Virus record (IMG/VR): IMGVR_UViG_3300021519_000017
Span: 1 to 46,648 of that record
Direction: 5' to 3' (one strand)
Origin: a virus
DNA: 46,648 nucleotides
Shown here: piece by piece, positions 30,300 to 46,648 of the stretch
Layout of the letters: each line of letters starts with the position of its first letter
Position numbering within the stretch: the stretch's first letter is position 1
Notes under the pieces: model-generated
What the model was told of the DNA's origin: nothing
The model's database searches: none
Seen by the model: only the letters and a program-made list of their open reading frames with translations
Program-made: the position numbers and the translations under genes

Positions 30300-30381
30300 C
30301 CGGCTCTCCTGCTTAAACTAGACCCAAACATTGTGCCATGTTACAACCCGGTAGCGCAAGAGGCTTTATTTCTGCTATGCT
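30300..30381 (+). promoter_or_regulatory. divergent early control region
   Basis: The 77 bases between the leftward and rightward early genes contain an AACAT/ATGTT dyad (30327-30342) followed by TGTTACAAC, and a plus-strand extended -10 TG-C-TATGCT (hexamer 30376-30381). No good -35 is present on either strand, as expected of activator- or operator-controlled promoters. Exact start sites cannot be fixed from sequence. Confidence 0.45.
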
Positions 30382-30754
30382 GGACCCCTTGAACGAAGGG
30401 CGGGTACTGACCGTCAAGCAGGCCGCCCGCGTGGCCAAGGTCTATCCTAATACGGTAAGCCGTTGGATACAAAGCGGTTTTCTCAAAGTTGTCCCGCGCT
30501 GGGGGAAAGAGAAGGGTGATCGTGTTCTGCTCGGAGAAGTGTTGGAGTGTGCTAAAGCCCGGCGCCGGGGTTCTGCAACGAGCCGCGGCGGAACACGTAC
30601 AATGCCTCGTGACCGGCTTTGGTACAAACGCCAAATTGCTGCCACCCGTTTCCGTCGTCTTCTCGAAACCAGCGAGGAAAGAGAACGTCGCCTTGCCTGG
30701 CAGCGTGAGTACGGCAAGCGCAGAACCCGCAAGCGAAGGGAACAAGTAAAGTAA
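30377..30754 (+). CDS. excisionase/MerR-type HTH protein
   Basis: 125 residues. The N-terminal winged-HTH pattern LTVKQAARVAKVYPNTVSRW followed by IQSGFLKVVPRWGKEKGDRV is the HTH_17/excisionase type. The C-terminal half is highly basic (RDRLWYKRQIAATRFRRLL, KRRTRKRREQVK), so it should bind DNA. Start: ATG 30377 overlaps the promoter hexamer, and a TTG at 30389 lies seven bases after the hexamer and would be the leaderless start. It heads the rightward early unit and probably regulates the adjacent divergent region or assists replication initiation. It overlaps the primase gene by one base (TAATG). Confidence 0.7.
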   Translation: MLDPLNEGRVLTVKQAARVAKVYPNTVSRWIQSGFLKVVPRWGKEKGDRVLLGEVLECAKARRRGSATSRGGTRTMPRDRLWYKRQIAATRFRRLLETSEERERRLAWQREYGKRRTRKRREQVK

Positions 30755-32727
30755 TGCTCGATCGCGCCCTCAATTGGTCCCGGCATGGGTGGCCAGTATT
30801 CCCCTGCAATTCCAACGGCATACCCGCACTGAAGGAGTGGCAGAAGCAGGCCACGACAGACGAGGCCACGATCCGGGCGTGGGACTGGGCGGACAAGCGC
30901 GTAGCGGCGGTGCCGGGCCTGGCGGGCTGCTTCGTGATCGACGTGGACGTGAAGAACGGCAAGGACGGTGAAACGTCGCTGGCCAAACTGGAGGCGGAAC
31001 ATGGCTTTGAAGCGTGGGAATACCCGCAGCAATCGACCCCTTCGGGAGGGCGTCATATCTTTTTACTCGGGAGCGCGCCTTCATCCGTTCAGCGTTTGCT
31101 CGGTGAAGGTCTTGATACCCGAGGAGGAACTGGAGAGGGAGGGCTTGGCTTCGTCTACGCTTACGGGGATGAGCCGCCCTGCGTTGCAGATGATTGTATG
31201 GGGGCTCCCGGAAGCCTCATGCACGCCCTCGAAAGGGGCAAGCGTGAAGTCTCCGAAGACCGGGAAACGCCGCGGGTAGAGCTGGACCAGCCCGCCAACG
31301 TCGAGAGGGCGCTGGCGTATATCAAGGACCTGCCCTCCCCCGACGAGGGCGAGCGCAACATGAAAGTTTTTAAGACCGCCTGCACTTTGAAAGATTTGGG
31401 GCTTTCCCTTTCAAAGATATTCGAAGTGCTGGAGGAGTATCCGAGTGTTACGGGCATCCCGCCCCTGTGCCAAGAAAACCCCGAGGAGTTCAATGCGACC
31501 GTCCGCTCCGCATACCGCAACGGGCAACGCCAGCCCGGCATCGACGCGATCGACGAAGAAAGCCGCAACAAAGCCGCCGAAGGTTTCGACCTTGGAGAAG
31601 CGCGGCAAGTGGGCGAGGCTAAAGGCGCTGGAGGACGTAAGCGCCTTGGCCTTTGGTCAGAACGCAAGGGTCGTGCGCCGCCAGCTTGGCTAGTGCGGGG
31701 CCTGCTCACGAAGTCGAGCCTGGCGGGGCTGTACGGTCCCGGCGGGTCCTATAAATCGTTCATCGCCCTCGACATGGCCGCGGCGATCGCAACCGGAGTG
31801 GAAACGTGGGGTGGCAGAGCTGTCGCGCATGGCCCAGTTGTCTTCATCAGCGGTGAAGGAAGTGTGGAGCCGCGTGCGCTGGCGATCGAGACGAGGGGTA
31901 TCACGATCACGGACAACTTCGCGATCCTCGATGGCATCAACCTGGATGACACGGACCAGCTTCTGGAGGCCGTCGAGGATATCAACACCGCGGTGGCCGA
32001 GAACTGGGGCGGTCAGGTGCCCGCCCTGATCGTGGTGGATACCCTGGCCCGCGCGGCGCCGGGGCAGGACGAGAATTCGGCCCGAGACATGGGCAGGGTG
32101 GTGCAGTCGTGCGACGGATTTCGCAAGTTGTACGGGTGCTGCGTATTGTTGGTGCATCACACCCCGAAGGGCGGCCATGACTGGCGCGGCTCGACGGCGG
32201 TGTGGAATGCCCTCGACACTGGCCTGTCAGTGAAGCGTACCGGGCTCAACAGCGCCACGCTGAAGGTCGAGCGACAGAAGGATGGCGCAATCGGGCAGGC
32301 GTGGAAGATCGCGCTGGAGGAGGTGCCTACGGGCCGTGAGCGCGACGACGAGAAAGAGGCTTCGCTGGTGATCTCGCGCGCCGAGCCGATCGAGCAGGAG
32401 CGCCACGCACAAAAAGATACCGCAGCCGAGAAGAATGGTAGCTCGGCCAAGATGCAGGTTATCGCGGTCGATGAGCTGAGGGCGCAGACGGCGGTAAAGG
32501 TCATGGAGGCCGCGGCGCCCAATTTCGAATTGGGGCGAGACGAGGTGCTGAACTTCATGATGACCGAACTGGGGCCTGAAGCAAATCGCGGCGGCGTGAG
32601 GCGTTTCATCAAGGCCGTGGTCAAGAAAGGCGAAGTCCAGGCCGAACACCCGCTCGCAAAATACTTGTGTGATATCAATGGGTTATGCTTCAAGAGGGTA
32701 GTTGAAGAAAACAGCACTTCGGAGTGA
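30754..32727 (+). CDS. primase-helicase (Prim-Pol plus RepA-like AAA)
   Basis: 657 residues. N-terminal Prim-Pol domain: FPCNSNGIPALKEWQ, FVIDVDVKNGKDG (D-x-D metal site) and STPSGGRHIFL. The central/C-terminal part is a RepA/DnaB-like ATPase with Walker A GPGGSYKS near residue 330 (GLYGPGGSYKSFIALDMA), VVFISGEGS, Walker B ALIVVDTLAR and VLLVHHTPKGG. It would synthesise primers and unwind DNA for the family A polymerase, in place of T7 gp4. It is directly followed by the repeat-rich putative origin, and one arm of the 22-bp inverted repeat lies within its last codons. Confidence 0.9.
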   Translation: MLDRALNWSRHGWPVFPCNSNGIPALKEWQKQATTDEATIRAWDWADKRVAAVPGLAGCFVIDVDVKNGKDGETSLAKLEAEHGFEAWEYPQQSTPSGGRHIFLLGSAPSSVQRLLGEGLDTRGGTGEGGLGFVYAYGDEPPCVADDCMGAPGSLMHALERGKREVSEDRETPRVELDQPANVERALAYIKDLPSPDEGERNMKVFKTACTLKDLGLSLSKIFEVLEEYPSVTGIPPLCQENPEEFNATVRSAYRNGQRQPGIDAIDEESRNKAAEGFDLGEARQVGEAKGAGGRKRLGLWSERKGRAPPAWLVRGLLTKSSLAGLYGPGGSYKSFIALDMAAAIATGVETWGGRAVAHGPVVFISGEGSVEPRALAIETRGITITDNFAILDGINLDDTDQLLEAVEDINTAVAENWGGQVPALIVVDTLARAAPGQDENSARDMGRVVQSCDGFRKLYGCCVLLVHHTPKGGHDWRGSTAVWNALDTGLSVKRTGLNSATLKVERQKDGAIGQAWKIALEEVPTGRERDDEKEASLVISRAEPIEQERHAQKDTAAEKNGSSAKMQVIAVDELRAQTAVKVMEAAAPNFELGRDEVLNFMMTELGPEANRGGVRRFIKAVVKKGEVQAEHPLAKYLCDINGLCFKRVVEENSTSE

Positions 32728-32748
32728 AGTAAACCAAGTGATGGCGTG

Positions 32749-32847
32749 TAGTGTAAGCCCTTGATATATAACGATAATTCGGCAAACTAAGAAAAGGTCC
32801 AATAAAATGGGCCTTTTTTAGTGTAAGTTATTGATAACACACGATAA
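32749..32847 (+). repeat. pair of 29-bp direct repeats
   Basis: 32749-32777 and 32819-32847, 70 bases apart, share TAGTGTAAG, TTGATA and CGATAA in the same spacing, with differences between these blocks. A degenerate third relative starts at 32893. They could be iterons for an initiator protein. Confidence 0.65.
32792..32819 (+). terminator. intrinsic terminator after the primase-helicase
   Basis: AAAAGGTCC (32792-32800) pairs with GGGCCTTTT (32809-32817), 8-base loop, and six T residues follow. The A-run on the 5' side makes it potentially bidirectional. Confidence 0.8.
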
Positions 32848-32877
32848 AACGCTTCTACGGTATGCGAAGGCGTTTTA
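32845..32877 (+). terminator. second hairpin with A/T flanks
   Basis: TAAAACGC (32845-32852) pairs with GCGTTTTA (32870-32877), extended by TTC/GAA with one bulged G. It may be a second, bidirectional terminator or part of the origin structure. Confidence 0.5.
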
Positions 32878-32927
32878 GCCCTCATGAAGCATAACCCATT
32901 GAAATCATTAGATAAATTGCCGAAAAA

Positions 32928-32986
32928 CTCTATACTCTCTTATCTACCACCCCCCTATGAAGGGGGGTAGTAAGAGGGGTATAGAG
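32928..32986. repeat. long interrupted palindrome (extended hairpin)
   Basis: CTCTATAC (32928-32935) pairs with GTATAGAG (32979-32986), CTCTTA with TAAGAG, CTA with TAG, and CCCCCC (32950-32955) with GGGGGG (32962-32967) around a TATGAA loop. The result is a ~59-base hairpin with small bulges. No T-tract follows. The gap up to the promoter at 33080 shows nothing else recognisable. Confidence 0.7.
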
Positions 32987-33079
32987 GTAGAGAGTGTTAT
33001 TACGCCGGTCTGCGGCAAGCGGGATTGGTTTGTGCTTCAGGGGGAACCCGTGGCCTGACAATGGTTGGCGCCCCGTAGA

Positions 33080-36025: not shown

Positions 36026-36310
36026 GCCTGCGATCTGGCCGCAATGGGCTAAGCCATTGATACCATTGGCTTTCATAACGATCACCGGCCAACAATACCG
36101 CATAAGATGCATTACGGCATATCTAACACCCCAGGCGGTTAGGCTGGCCATTAGTAAGTGAGCGCTCACCCCGCATGCAACGTTATAACATACCCCGTCT
36201 GAAATCTGGCCGATCGAGAAAGGGGTATGCCCGGCGTAAGATGGGTCCCCAGCCGCCGCCCTATGGCGATCAGATATATAATAGGATTTTTTGAAATCGA
36301 AGATGAACTA
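36026..36310 (+). promoter_or_regulatory. intergenic region with motif repeat and operator-like palindrome
   Basis: About 285 bases with no convincing gene. It holds one TAAGCCATTGATA (36050-36062), flanked by CAATGG and CCATTG words. The perfect 12-bp palindrome GTGAGCGCTCAC lies at 36158-36169 and GTTATAACATACC at 36182-36194. An isolated TATAAT at 36277-36282 lacks a -35 and may be fortuitous. Confidence 0.45.
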
Positions 36311-40856: not shown

Positions 40857-42128
40857 GTGCCGGACTCAAATATCCTTCGCCCGGCCATGGGGGCCGCAAG
40901 CGGCCCCTCGCTTAGTGGTCCTTTTTCGGCGGGCGTTTCATCCTTCTACGATTTTTCGCTTGGCTCTTTGCCGAGCGGCGTCACGCTCACACGCGCCTCT
41001 GCGGGCTATCGCTATAACAGCTCCGGCGTTCTCGTCTCGGAGGCGACGGATGCGGCTCGTTTCCAGTACGATCCGGTCGCGTTCACGTCGCGTGGTTTGC
41101 TGATCGAGGAAGCCCGCACAGAAGCGCATCCGTACAACGTCGCTCTGGATGACGCATCGTGGATCAAAACGACAGTCACGGTCACCGCAAACACTGCCGT
41201 CGCCCCTGACGGTACGACGACGATGGACAAACTGGTTCCGAACAACCTGTCCACGACTAACCAGTTGCGAAAGACAGTGACCTTTTATTCCTATGTGTCC
41301 GGCACGACATACACGTTTTCTGTCGTGGCGAAAGCCTCCGGTTGGGATTGGATGTTCATACAACCGACAGGCGGCTTTGCAACAACTCGCGCCTACTTCA
41401 ATTTGACTACAGGGACGATTGGCACCCTTTCGGCCGGGGTGACGGCGTACATGCAGAACCTTGGCGGCGGGTTGTACCGCTGCACGATCATAATTACGGC
41501 GACGAGCACGAACACCGGCTCCGTCCTGATTTCGGCCACCACGGCCAACAATAATCCCTCCCCAACGGGCGATGGTGTGAACGGCCTTCACGCTTGGGGC
41601 TTCTCCCTTCAAGCGGGCAATAGCCAAACTAGCATCATCCCGACCACGACTGCGGCAGTCACCCGCGCTGCCGACGTTGCACTCATTACCAACGCGAACG
41701 CACTGGCGGATCAATGTTGGATCATTCGCGGTCGCACGCCACGAAAGATTGCGAGTGATGGTATCTGCACAGCCTTCCAAGTCGATAACGGGACGAACAC
41801 CGACCGAAGGATGGTCCGCCAAGATGCTGATGGAACGCTACATGCTTACGCTGTTGTCGGCGGTGTTACGACTTGCGACATAAACCTAAGCGCCGTTGCG
41901 GCGGACACAGACTTCACCGTTGCTGTCCGTTGGGCTGACAACAATTTCGCCGCCTCGTTGAACGGTGGCGCGATTGTCACTGACCTATCCGGTGCAAACC
42001 CCATCGGACTTACTACTGCAAGGATTGGTTCTCAACCATCCAACGGCAATATGTGGAACGCAACCATCAAAACCATAGAGACGCGGCGCACGGCGAGCGA
42101 TGCCGAGCTGCCGTTGCTATCGGCTTAG
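40857..42128 (+). CDS. head-spike/tail-fibre protein, copy 2 (hybrid)
   Basis: 423 residues. GTG start at 40857 directly after the preceding stop. N-terminal tag MPDSNILRPAMGAASGPSLS is unlike copies 1 and 3 and is taken as the V-type head. From FYDFSLG on it follows copy 1, with 913 identical bases. The last ~70 bases (from ACCATCAAAACC) match copy 3 instead, including the same third-position choices, so its 3' end is P-type. It is followed within ten bases by the third fibre gene rather than by a small partner gene. Role: receptor-binding spike, as for copy 1. Confidence 0.75.
   Translation: MPDSNILRPAMGAASGPSLSGPFSAGVSSFYDFSLGSLPSGVTLTRASAGYRYNSSGVLVSEATDAARFQYDPVAFTSRGLLIEEARTEAHPYNVALDDASWIKTTVTVTANTAVAPDGTTTMDKLVPNNLSTTNQLRKTVTFYSYVSGTTYTFSVVAKASGWDWMFIQPTGGFATTRAYFNLTTGTIGTLSAGVTAYMQNLGGGLYRCTIIITATSTNTGSVLISATTANNNPSPTGDGVNGLHAWGFSLQAGNSQTSIIPTTTAAVTRAADVALITNANALADQCWIIRGRTPRKIASDGICTAFQVDNGTNTDRRMVRQDADGTLHAYAVVGGVTTCDINLSAVAADTDFTVAVRWADNNFAASLNGGAIVTDLSGANPIGLTTARIGSQPSNGNMWNATIKTIETRRTASDAELPLLSA
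40976..41888 (+). repeat. ~913-bp direct repeat, right copy
   Basis: Identical by eye to 271-1183. The 40,705-base spacing equals the length of the putative circular V genome. Confidence 0.85.
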
Positions 42129-42138
42129 GGTAGAGACA

Positions 42139-43374
42139 ATGGTGTTCCGGTACCTCGATAGGCCTCGCGGCGGCAGCAGCAGCAGCGCCTTCTACGATTT
42201 TTCGCTTGGCTCTTTGCCGGCCGGCGTAACGCTCACCCGCGCGTCGGCAGGATACCGCTACAACAGCGCGGGTTTGCTCGTGTCGGAGACGACAAATGTA
42301 GCGCGCTTCCAGTACGATCCGGCGACGCTCGCGCCTCGCGGGCTGCTGATCGAGGACGCGGCGACCAATATAACGACGTACTCCGAGCAATTTGACCAAG
42401 CTGCGTGGAATAAAGCCGCAAGTACGATTACAGCAAACGCCGCTGTCGCCCCAGACGGCACGACGACGATGGATAAAATCGTAGAGGACAGCACGCTCGC
42501 GGCCCATTCCATTTCACGCAACGCCACTTTTACTTCTGGCTTAACCTATACACAGCAGGTTTTCGCGAAAGCAGGTGAGCGGCAATATGTGCTCTTTAGC
42601 TTCACCTCTAATGTATTTGGGGGTGTTGGCACACAAAGAGCTTTTTTCAATCTTGGGGCAGGCACCATTGTCAGCACCACTAGTCTTGTAACAGCATATA
42701 TTCAGTCAATCGGCGGCGGTATCTATAGGCTTGCCGCAAGTTGTCTTTGCACAAACATCAACACACAGCCGTATTCGCTTTCTTTATCTACTGATGGGAC
42801 AACCACCACTTATACGGGCGACGGGACAAGTGGTGTCTATGTGTGGGGGTATCAACTTACAGCTACCGACTTTGCGTCGAGCTACATTCAAACGACGACG
42901 GCCGCTGCCACGCGCGCTGCCGATGTGGCGCTCATCACGAACCCCGCAGTCCTTGGCGACCAGTGCTACATCGTGAAGGGCCGCACGCCGCGCAAGATCA
43001 GCGGCGGCGCGATTAACATCGCTCTCCAAGTGGACGATGGCTCGTCTAGTAATCGGCGAACGTTGCGCTACGGCACCGACGCCCGGCTGCACGTCATCGC
43101 AAGCGTCGCTGGCGTCGATCAATGCGATCTCGATCTCGGCGCAGTGGCCGCTGACACCGACTTCGCCGTGGCGATGCGCTTTGCCGACAACAACTTCGCC
43201 GCCTCCCTGAATGGCGGCGCGATTGTTACCGATCTGGCGGGAACCAACCCGCTCGGCCTGACGACTGCGCGCGTCGGGCGCAGCGCAACCGGCAGTTATT
43301 GGAGCAGCACCATCAAAACCATAGAGACGCGGCGCACGGCGAGCGATGCCGAGCTGCCGTTGCTATCGGCTTAG
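42139..43374 (+). CDS. head-spike/tail-fibre protein, copy 3 (P type)
   Basis: 411 residues, same length as copy 1. The N-terminal tag MVFRYLDRPRGG and the untranslated bases before it match copy 1, but from about residue 75 the sequence diverges (SEQFDQAAWNKAASTITANAA is the canonical head-spike fibre form). The C-terminal ~25 codons match copy 2. It carries RYNSAGLLVSETTNVARFQY and PRGLLIEDAATN, the family hallmark. It is followed by its own small partner (43385) and the P lysis genes. In P it would be the second gene of a tandem fibre pair. Receptor binding inferred. Confidence 0.75.
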   Translation: MVFRYLDRPRGGSSSSAFYDFSLGSLPAGVTLTRASAGYRYNSAGLLVSETTNVARFQYDPATLAPRGLLIEDAATNITTYSEQFDQAAWNKAASTITANAAVAPDGTTTMDKIVEDSTLAAHSISRNATFTSGLTYTQQVFAKAGERQYVLFSFTSNVFGGVGTQRAFFNLGAGTIVSTTSLVTAYIQSIGGGIYRLAASCLCTNINTQPYSLSLSTDGTTTTYTGDGTSGVYVWGYQLTATDFASSYIQTTTAAATRAADVALITNPAVLGDQCYIVKGRTPRKISGGAINIALQVDDGSSSNRRTLRYGTDARLHVIASVAGVDQCDLDLGAVAADTDFAVAMRFADNNFAASLNGGAIVTDLAGTNPLGLTTARVGRSATGSYWSSTIKTIETRRTASDAELPLLSA

Positions 43375-46367: not shown

Positions 46368-46397
46368 CCTATCCGCGCGGAACATACTGAAAATGCA

Positions 46398-46537
46398 GGC
46401 CGGCGAACCTTCTGCTAAGTCGTTGATATTGGCGACGAGTGGGGCAACAAGTGGATGTTGCCACCCTCAATCAAATCAATGGGTTGCAATCGGTGCACCA
46501 GAGGTTCGCCATAGGCCGGTTAGCCGCGCAACCCATT
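46398..46537. repeat. interleaved inverted repeats at the right edge
   Basis: GGCGAACCT (46402-46410, preceded by GGCC) pairs with AGGTTCGCC (46501-46509, followed after three bases by GGCC). CAATGGGTTGC (46477-46487) pairs with GCAACCCATTG (46527-46537). GGCAACA/TGTTGCC (46443-46462) is a local hairpin. The first two pairs interleave. It also holds TAAGTCGTTGATA (46416-46428). Confidence 0.55.
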
Positions 46538-46647
46538 GGGGAGTATCCGTTCTAGAGCTGGTTCTATTCCCATCGCCAACGCCTCAACGAATTCCTGCGT
46601 GGCGGGCGTCCAAGAAAACCATTCTCCCTGAATGCGCGCGCCAGCCA
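46519..46647 (-). CDS. C-terminus of a GIY-YIG-like nuclease (partial)
   Basis: A minus-strand frame enters from the right edge and ends at 46519. The 42 visible residues contain ARIQGEWFSWTPATQEFVEA, where R-x-x-GEWF is the last conserved block of GIY-YIG/T5orf172-type proteins. The catalytic GIY-YIG part would lie outside the window. The assignment rests on this short end only. Confidence 0.45.
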
Positions 46648-46648
46648 G

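Follow-up and report, generated by a model that had tools for sequence, protein, structure and literature searches.

Replication origins that lie directly behind the gene for their own initiator have been described in plasmids and mobile elements. In the Sulfolobus plasmid pRN1, which encodes the Prim-Pol/helicase ORF904, the origin is experimentally known to follow the initiator gene directly, and Bordetella phage BIP-1 was reported to have a similar stem-loop after its primase gene (PMC4234260). The same position is experimentally known for SaPI origins and is supported by binding data for SCCmec; in SaPI Rep and SCCmec Cch2, repeats are recognised by the C-terminal domain (PMC7581432). The oriV of RSF1010 combines RepC iterons, the RepA helicase, the RepB' primase and ssi hairpins (summarised in PMC4234260). 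A host protein can also take part: integration host factor (IHF), with the consensus TAAnnnnTTGATW (PMC10380432), assists origin opening in oriC, pSC101 and R6K, and in pSC101 and R6K gamma it is needed for this step together with the initiator (PMC5043065).

The DNA analysed here, referred to as the window, comprises positions 1 to 46,648 of IMG/VR virus record IMGVR_UViG_3300021519_000017 (46,648 nucleotides). Like pRN1, it encodes an AEP primase-helicase fusion, and in pRN1 a stem-loop downstream of the gene is essential and is preceded by a terminator (PMC4234260). The helicase of pRN1 belongs to SF3, whereas that of the window has a RepA-like RecA fold (AAA_25) and no SF3 assignment, and thus the window is not a member of the pRN1 family; in pRN1, iterons are absent and IHF-type sites are not described. 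SaPI Rep and SCCmec Cch2 share with the window an origin position directly downstream of an initiator helicase gene (PMC7581432) but differ in their helicases, in a separate primase and in that IHF-type sites are not described. RSF1010 oriV resembles the window in combining a hairpin with repeats and in the RepA match of the helicase, although it relies on three separate proteins and two ssi hairpins, as against one fused protein and one large hairpin. pSC101 and R6K gamma additionally use DnaA and an iteron-binding Rep, whereas no DnaA box was recognised by eye in the window. Among phages, Rhizobium phage RHph_N65 and Salicola phage CGphi29 carry a related primase-helicase gene followed by repeats and a hairpin; they differ in having clear short iterons (GCGGAGA, 12 copies, and GGGGACA, five copies, respectively), and no origin is annotated in the stretches of either phage that were examined.

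Repeats and hairpins behind the primase-helicase gene

The genome is podophage-like, with genes for a head-tail adaptor, an internal virion protein, a DNA polymerase and an exonuclease; compared with that of its nearest relative, it is circularly permuted. About 6 kb of its right end (from 40.5 kb) are absent from the closest relative, and three related tail proteins (phrog_5939) are encoded at 188-1423, 40857-42128 and 42100-43374.

An initial annotation had pointed to nested inverted and direct repeats with hairpins in an AT-rich block as a candidate replication origin. Repeat search, folding and a GC scan recovered all of these in place. The features are as follows (+ and - denote strands).

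30338..30754, +: gene for an HTH protein (HTH_17/excisionase-like), upstream of the primase
30754..32727, +: primase-helicase gene, the proposed initiator (Pfam, phmmer against PDB, Foldseek)
32672..32685, -: element copy 1, inverted, in the 3' end of the primase-helicase gene; TAACCCATTGATAT; exact IHF consensus (at 32673)
32747..32927, no strand: AT-rich stretch with the lowest GC in the window (0.36), probable DNA-unwinding region
32749..32777, +: second copy of the element, running into an AT-rich tail; TAAGCCCTTGATATATAACGATAA; matches the IHF consensus exactly over 32754-32766
32786..32822, +: T-run hairpin flanked by copies 2 and 3, probably the intrinsic terminator for the primase operon
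32819..32847, +: third copy of the element; TAAGTTATTGATAACACACGATAA; matches the IHF consensus exactly over 32824-32836
32845..32877, +: small, weak hairpin between copies 3 and 4 (z -1.67)
32887..32915, +: element copy 4; TAACCCATTGAAATCATTAGATAA; one base short of the IHF consensus
32928..32986, +: large outer hairpin of 59 nt with apex CCCCCCTATGAAGGGGGG (z -4.45; 0 of 200 shuffles as good)
32987..32994, +: third copy of the hairpin arm motif, directly outside the large hairpin; GTAGAGAG, single occurrence in the window

The primase-helicase combines AEP primase and helicase domains in one protein: a Prim-Pol domain (PF09250, residues 8-127, by Pfam) and an RSF1010-RepA-like helicase domain (AAA_25, PF13481, residues 307-474). 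The sole PDB sequence match of the helicase was RSF1010 RepA (1g8y, E 2.7e-8, phmmer), and RepA was also among the top fold matches in Foldseek. For the C-terminal domain (about residues 546-657), a PDB profile search gave no meaningful match, and its AlphaFold model is poor (pLDDT 54), too uncertain for a winged helix or another DNA-binding fold to be claimed. About 390 noncoding bases follow the gene.

The inverted repeat (32670-32698 and 32879-32907) is 29 nt long, 93% identical, has an 18-bp perfect core and encloses two hairpins; its left arm lies inside the initiator gene, as had been proposed. Nowhere in the window does a perfect inverted match within 400 bp exceed these 18 bp, and 60 dinucleotide shuffles reached at most 15, which agrees with the earlier view that the match exceeds chance. 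The direct repeats at 32749-32777 and 32819-32847 are 76% alike and 70 bp apart, and a third direct copy at 32887-32915 (62%) doubles as the right arm of the inverted repeat. Arms and direct repeats are thus the same element, and the nested arrangement is reducible to four copies of the pattern TAA(N4)TTGA(W)A (32685 on the - strand; 32754, 32824 and 32892 on the + strand), with spacings of 70 and 68 bp. That the repeats are a product of chance or a functionless relic might be suggested by direct copies just 62-76% alike; given the shuffle tests and the conservation in relatives, where the elements are conserved beyond their surroundings, this is highly improbable.

The IHF consensus is matched exactly at 32673, 32754 and 32824 and with a single deviating base at 32892. 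Exact matches number seven in the whole window, where 0.59 would be expected, and the block accounts for three of them. Another, at 36050-36062, is noncoding; relative L002 carries an exact site at the equivalent position, and the sequence of the site occurs once in the L003 contig. The noncoding end of the window (46368-46648) holds two opposed exact sites (46416 and 46474) together with inverted CAATGGGTTGC/GCAACCCATTG, a cluster that is perhaps a packaging or regulatory site.

The block had been described as AT-rich in a GC-rich genome, and it is in fact the most AT-rich place of the window, with a GC content of 0.36 versus 0.60 overall; only one of 4647 180-bp windows is equally low. GC skew, which the initial annotation had named as a check, was uninformative: its minimum lies at about 30-30.5 kb, some 2.5 kb from the block and at the flip in gene direction, and since skew tracks gene direction it provides no independent mark.

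The hairpin at 32786-32822 is modest (z -2.3) and was not listed by a pattern scan. A strong fold was obtained for the outer hairpin, which matches the roughly 59-base hairpin that had been placed outside the inverted repeat. Its arms hold GTATAGAG in inverted orientation (32979, + strand, and 32928, - strand), a motif found nowhere else in the window. Rfam gave no match. A region for transcription control or termination, with terminators, IHF sites and a leader hairpin but no role in replication, would account for the two hairpins between the repeats, one of them shaped like an intrinsic terminator, and for two weak promoter-like matches. It is nevertheless unlikely, as the outer hairpin has no T tail and one repeat is located inside the coding end of the gene; the comparisons below weigh against it as well.

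Conservation and exchange in close relatives

The origin idea was open to refutation if the repeats were not conserved in relatives, but conservation was found and the idea stands. The primase-helicase is 97% identical to that of the window in L002, 74-75% in L008/L009 and 58% in L007, and the block is kept in all four. Each has one inverted copy in the 3' end of the gene (the counterpart of copy 1), the rest behind the gene and the last just before the hairpin, with three to four copies in total and spacings of 76-77 bp in L007-L009. The strict element pattern occurs in these four contigs at this block only, and the counterpart of copy 4 in L002 and L009 reads TAAGTCATTGAAATCATTA. Between the window and L002, bases 32747-33004 show six differences in 258 (noncoding block 97-98% identical), whereas identity is 86% and 72% in the noncoding stretches that come next and 85% at primase third codon positions. 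Such near-perfect noncoding conservation across 250 bp argues against a mere transcription control region.

A terminator-like hairpin follows the primase gene directly in L007-L009 too. The outer hairpin surpassed all shuffles on folding in the window, L007, L008 and L003, and in L007 and L003/L005 compensatory changes (five pairs affected) preserve its structure. A stem-loop with conserved structure is thus present directly downstream of the initiator gene.

In L003/L005, parts of the system have been replaced. Compared with the window, the N-terminal Prim-Pol part is 87-92% identical, the helicase 51-52% and the C-terminus 22-24%, and the block there has six GACGC copies in 300 AT-rich bp (other windows average about one) and one element copy; a hairpin is retained, with a different stem. 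The helicase/C-terminal part and the origin repeats change jointly and so appear to belong together. This pairing of initiator helicase and C-terminus with the repeats is suggestive, drawn from sequences of few lineages, and a block that changes together with these parts is again not what transcription control would lead one to expect. In these relatives the primase gene is separated from the GACGC block by a reverse-strand ORF (L003:2785-3246, 153 aa; also in L005 and L006) that is missing in the window's clade.

The HTH protein had been proposed, besides the primase-helicase, as the binding partner of the repeats. It is 79-83% identical in L003/L005 and hence stays conserved where the repeats are wholly replaced, which makes it an unlikely reader of the repeats, and it was rejected as partner. 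As to the primase-helicase, the repeats fit the IHF consensus better than an initiator-specific site.

The element in distant phages

IMG/VR was also scanned at the DNA level alone: the 19-mer TAAGTCATTGAAATCATTR, from which copy 4 differs by two bases, yielded at least 120 stretches. According to a primase-helicase profile, 26 of the 167 stretches fetched with two patterns hold such a gene, among the matches listed. Outside the window's clade, the element was found at 13 loci 0-145 bp behind the gene stop, nearly always on the same strand (again among the matches listed), and at several other loci one extra gene is inserted between the two. Most of the 130 exact 19-mer matches listed have no recognised primase adjoining. 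As identity at the element positions is partly forced by the search expression, permissive matching was used instead; it usually located another copy at a distance of 56-57 or 66-70 bp, often with 0-5 mismatches, versus at least six in shuffled flanks. In RHph_N65, two copies of the element are separated by 68 bp. At distant loci the element is surrounded by phage-specific short repeats, e.g. GCGGAAG, CGAAAG, TCCAGACA or GGAGGTT, and is followed by a hairpin with z < -2 in 13 of 20 loci, not all. The tie of the block to one primase-helicase family in otherwise unrelated phages is a further point against a transcription region.

A survey starting from the protein covered 72 primase loci, and in 26 of them the 400 bp behind the gene contain a 7-mer five or more times; the same holds for 31 of 2676 control windows, and iterons are thus common behind the primase-helicase gene. 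The window itself has no such array, with two to three copies of any 7-mer, compared with 4-14 in many relatives outside the clade. The element marks a subset of loci: apart from RHph_N65 and the clade of the window, the relatives found in this way mostly lack it. Large hairpins formed by inverted short repeats were seen downstream of the primase in L031, L041, L045, L052, L055, L004 and L047, and the hairpin-forming repeat differs in each. The gene L221:6660-8726 is followed by the same origin-like block, and its AAA_25 product matches Toprim weakly and Prim-Pol not at all; the association of the block may therefore be with the RepA-like helicase.

The 19-mer is no common chromosomal word, being found in 0 of 396 actinobacterial genomes and in 1 of 385 genomes of an Agrobacterium's class. 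In an alphaproteobacterial genome (L288:228-246), it occurs as TAAGTCATTGAAATCATTG right at the end of a tRNA-Lys gene (245-320), where an integrated element possibly has its attachment site.

Attachment and cos sites typically contain IHF-type sites, and the block might accordingly be a recombination (attachment) or packaging site, the more so as the 19-mer is also found beside a tRNA gene. This is very unlikely: no tyrosine integrase (PF00589) was detected in the window or in seven close relatives, the window has no tRNA, and the site sits behind a primase-helicase gene and not behind an integrase or terminase gene. An attachment site was rejected on the first two grounds.

More weight has to be given to the possibility that the block is an origin whose element is a dedicated site of the phage initiator or of another shared protein, and not of IHF. 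The distant-phage element has TTGAAA, which departs from the IHF consensus by one base, with position 12 usually A and not T. Its near-constant 19 bases, with a conserved tail ATCATTR and two TCATTG half-repeats 9 bp apart, exceed what IHF requires. Such a dedicated site is a reasonable but less favoured option, because the layout of TAA, N4 and TTGA agrees with the IHF consensus and because, in an alphaproteobacterium, the 19-mer adjoins a tRNA-Lys gene, a kind of place where elements typically integrate. Moreover, the element is constant while the iterons vary from phage to phage, which points to a common host factor. The bending protein at the elements is thus probably IHF itself, judged from the sequence, and the initiator itself more likely makes contact with the outer hairpin, at its arms and flank, than with the repeats.

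A probable replication origin and its possible mode of action

The block at 32670-32994 is very probably a phage replication origin (probability roughly 0.75) that would be served by the phage's own primase-helicase and a host architectural protein, since the same kind of block is found behind the same gene in distantly related phages. The location proposed by the initial annotation has thereby gained comparative evidence, with the same place, elements and gene in close and distant phages.

According to the mechanism proposed, IHF, or a protein of the same specificity, would bind the TAA(N4)TTGAW elements and bend the AT-rich stretch. The C-terminal region of the primase-helicase would bind the inverted GTATAGAG motifs in the arms of the large hairpin and its flank. 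Bending and initiator binding together would unwind the AT-rich stretch, with the hairpin being extruded or exposed, whereupon the RepA-like helicase ring could load and the Prim-Pol domain make the first primer.

On balance, the data lean towards an undescribed class of origins across many phages with a primase/RepA-like helicase, built of a near-constant 19-mer, iterons and then a hairpin. In this class, TAAGTCATTGAAATCATTR would usually be present twice, with spacings stepping by about one helical turn (56-57, 66-70 and 76-77 bp), and the window's clade would be an iteron-poor offshoot relying on four element copies and the hairpin. The logic is known from pRN1, SaPI/SCCmec and RSF1010. A search of open-access papers did not turn up the combination, and the element's sequence appeared there only in three unrelated eukaryotic papers.

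To our knowledge, the origins of most phages are unknown. A signature of primase-helicase gene, element pair, iterons and hairpin would let origins be predicted in many uncultured phages, and the origin reading offers a concrete host dependence, namely on IHF. L003/L005 represent a natural experiment, with parts of the initiator and the repeats of the origin exchanged as a set.
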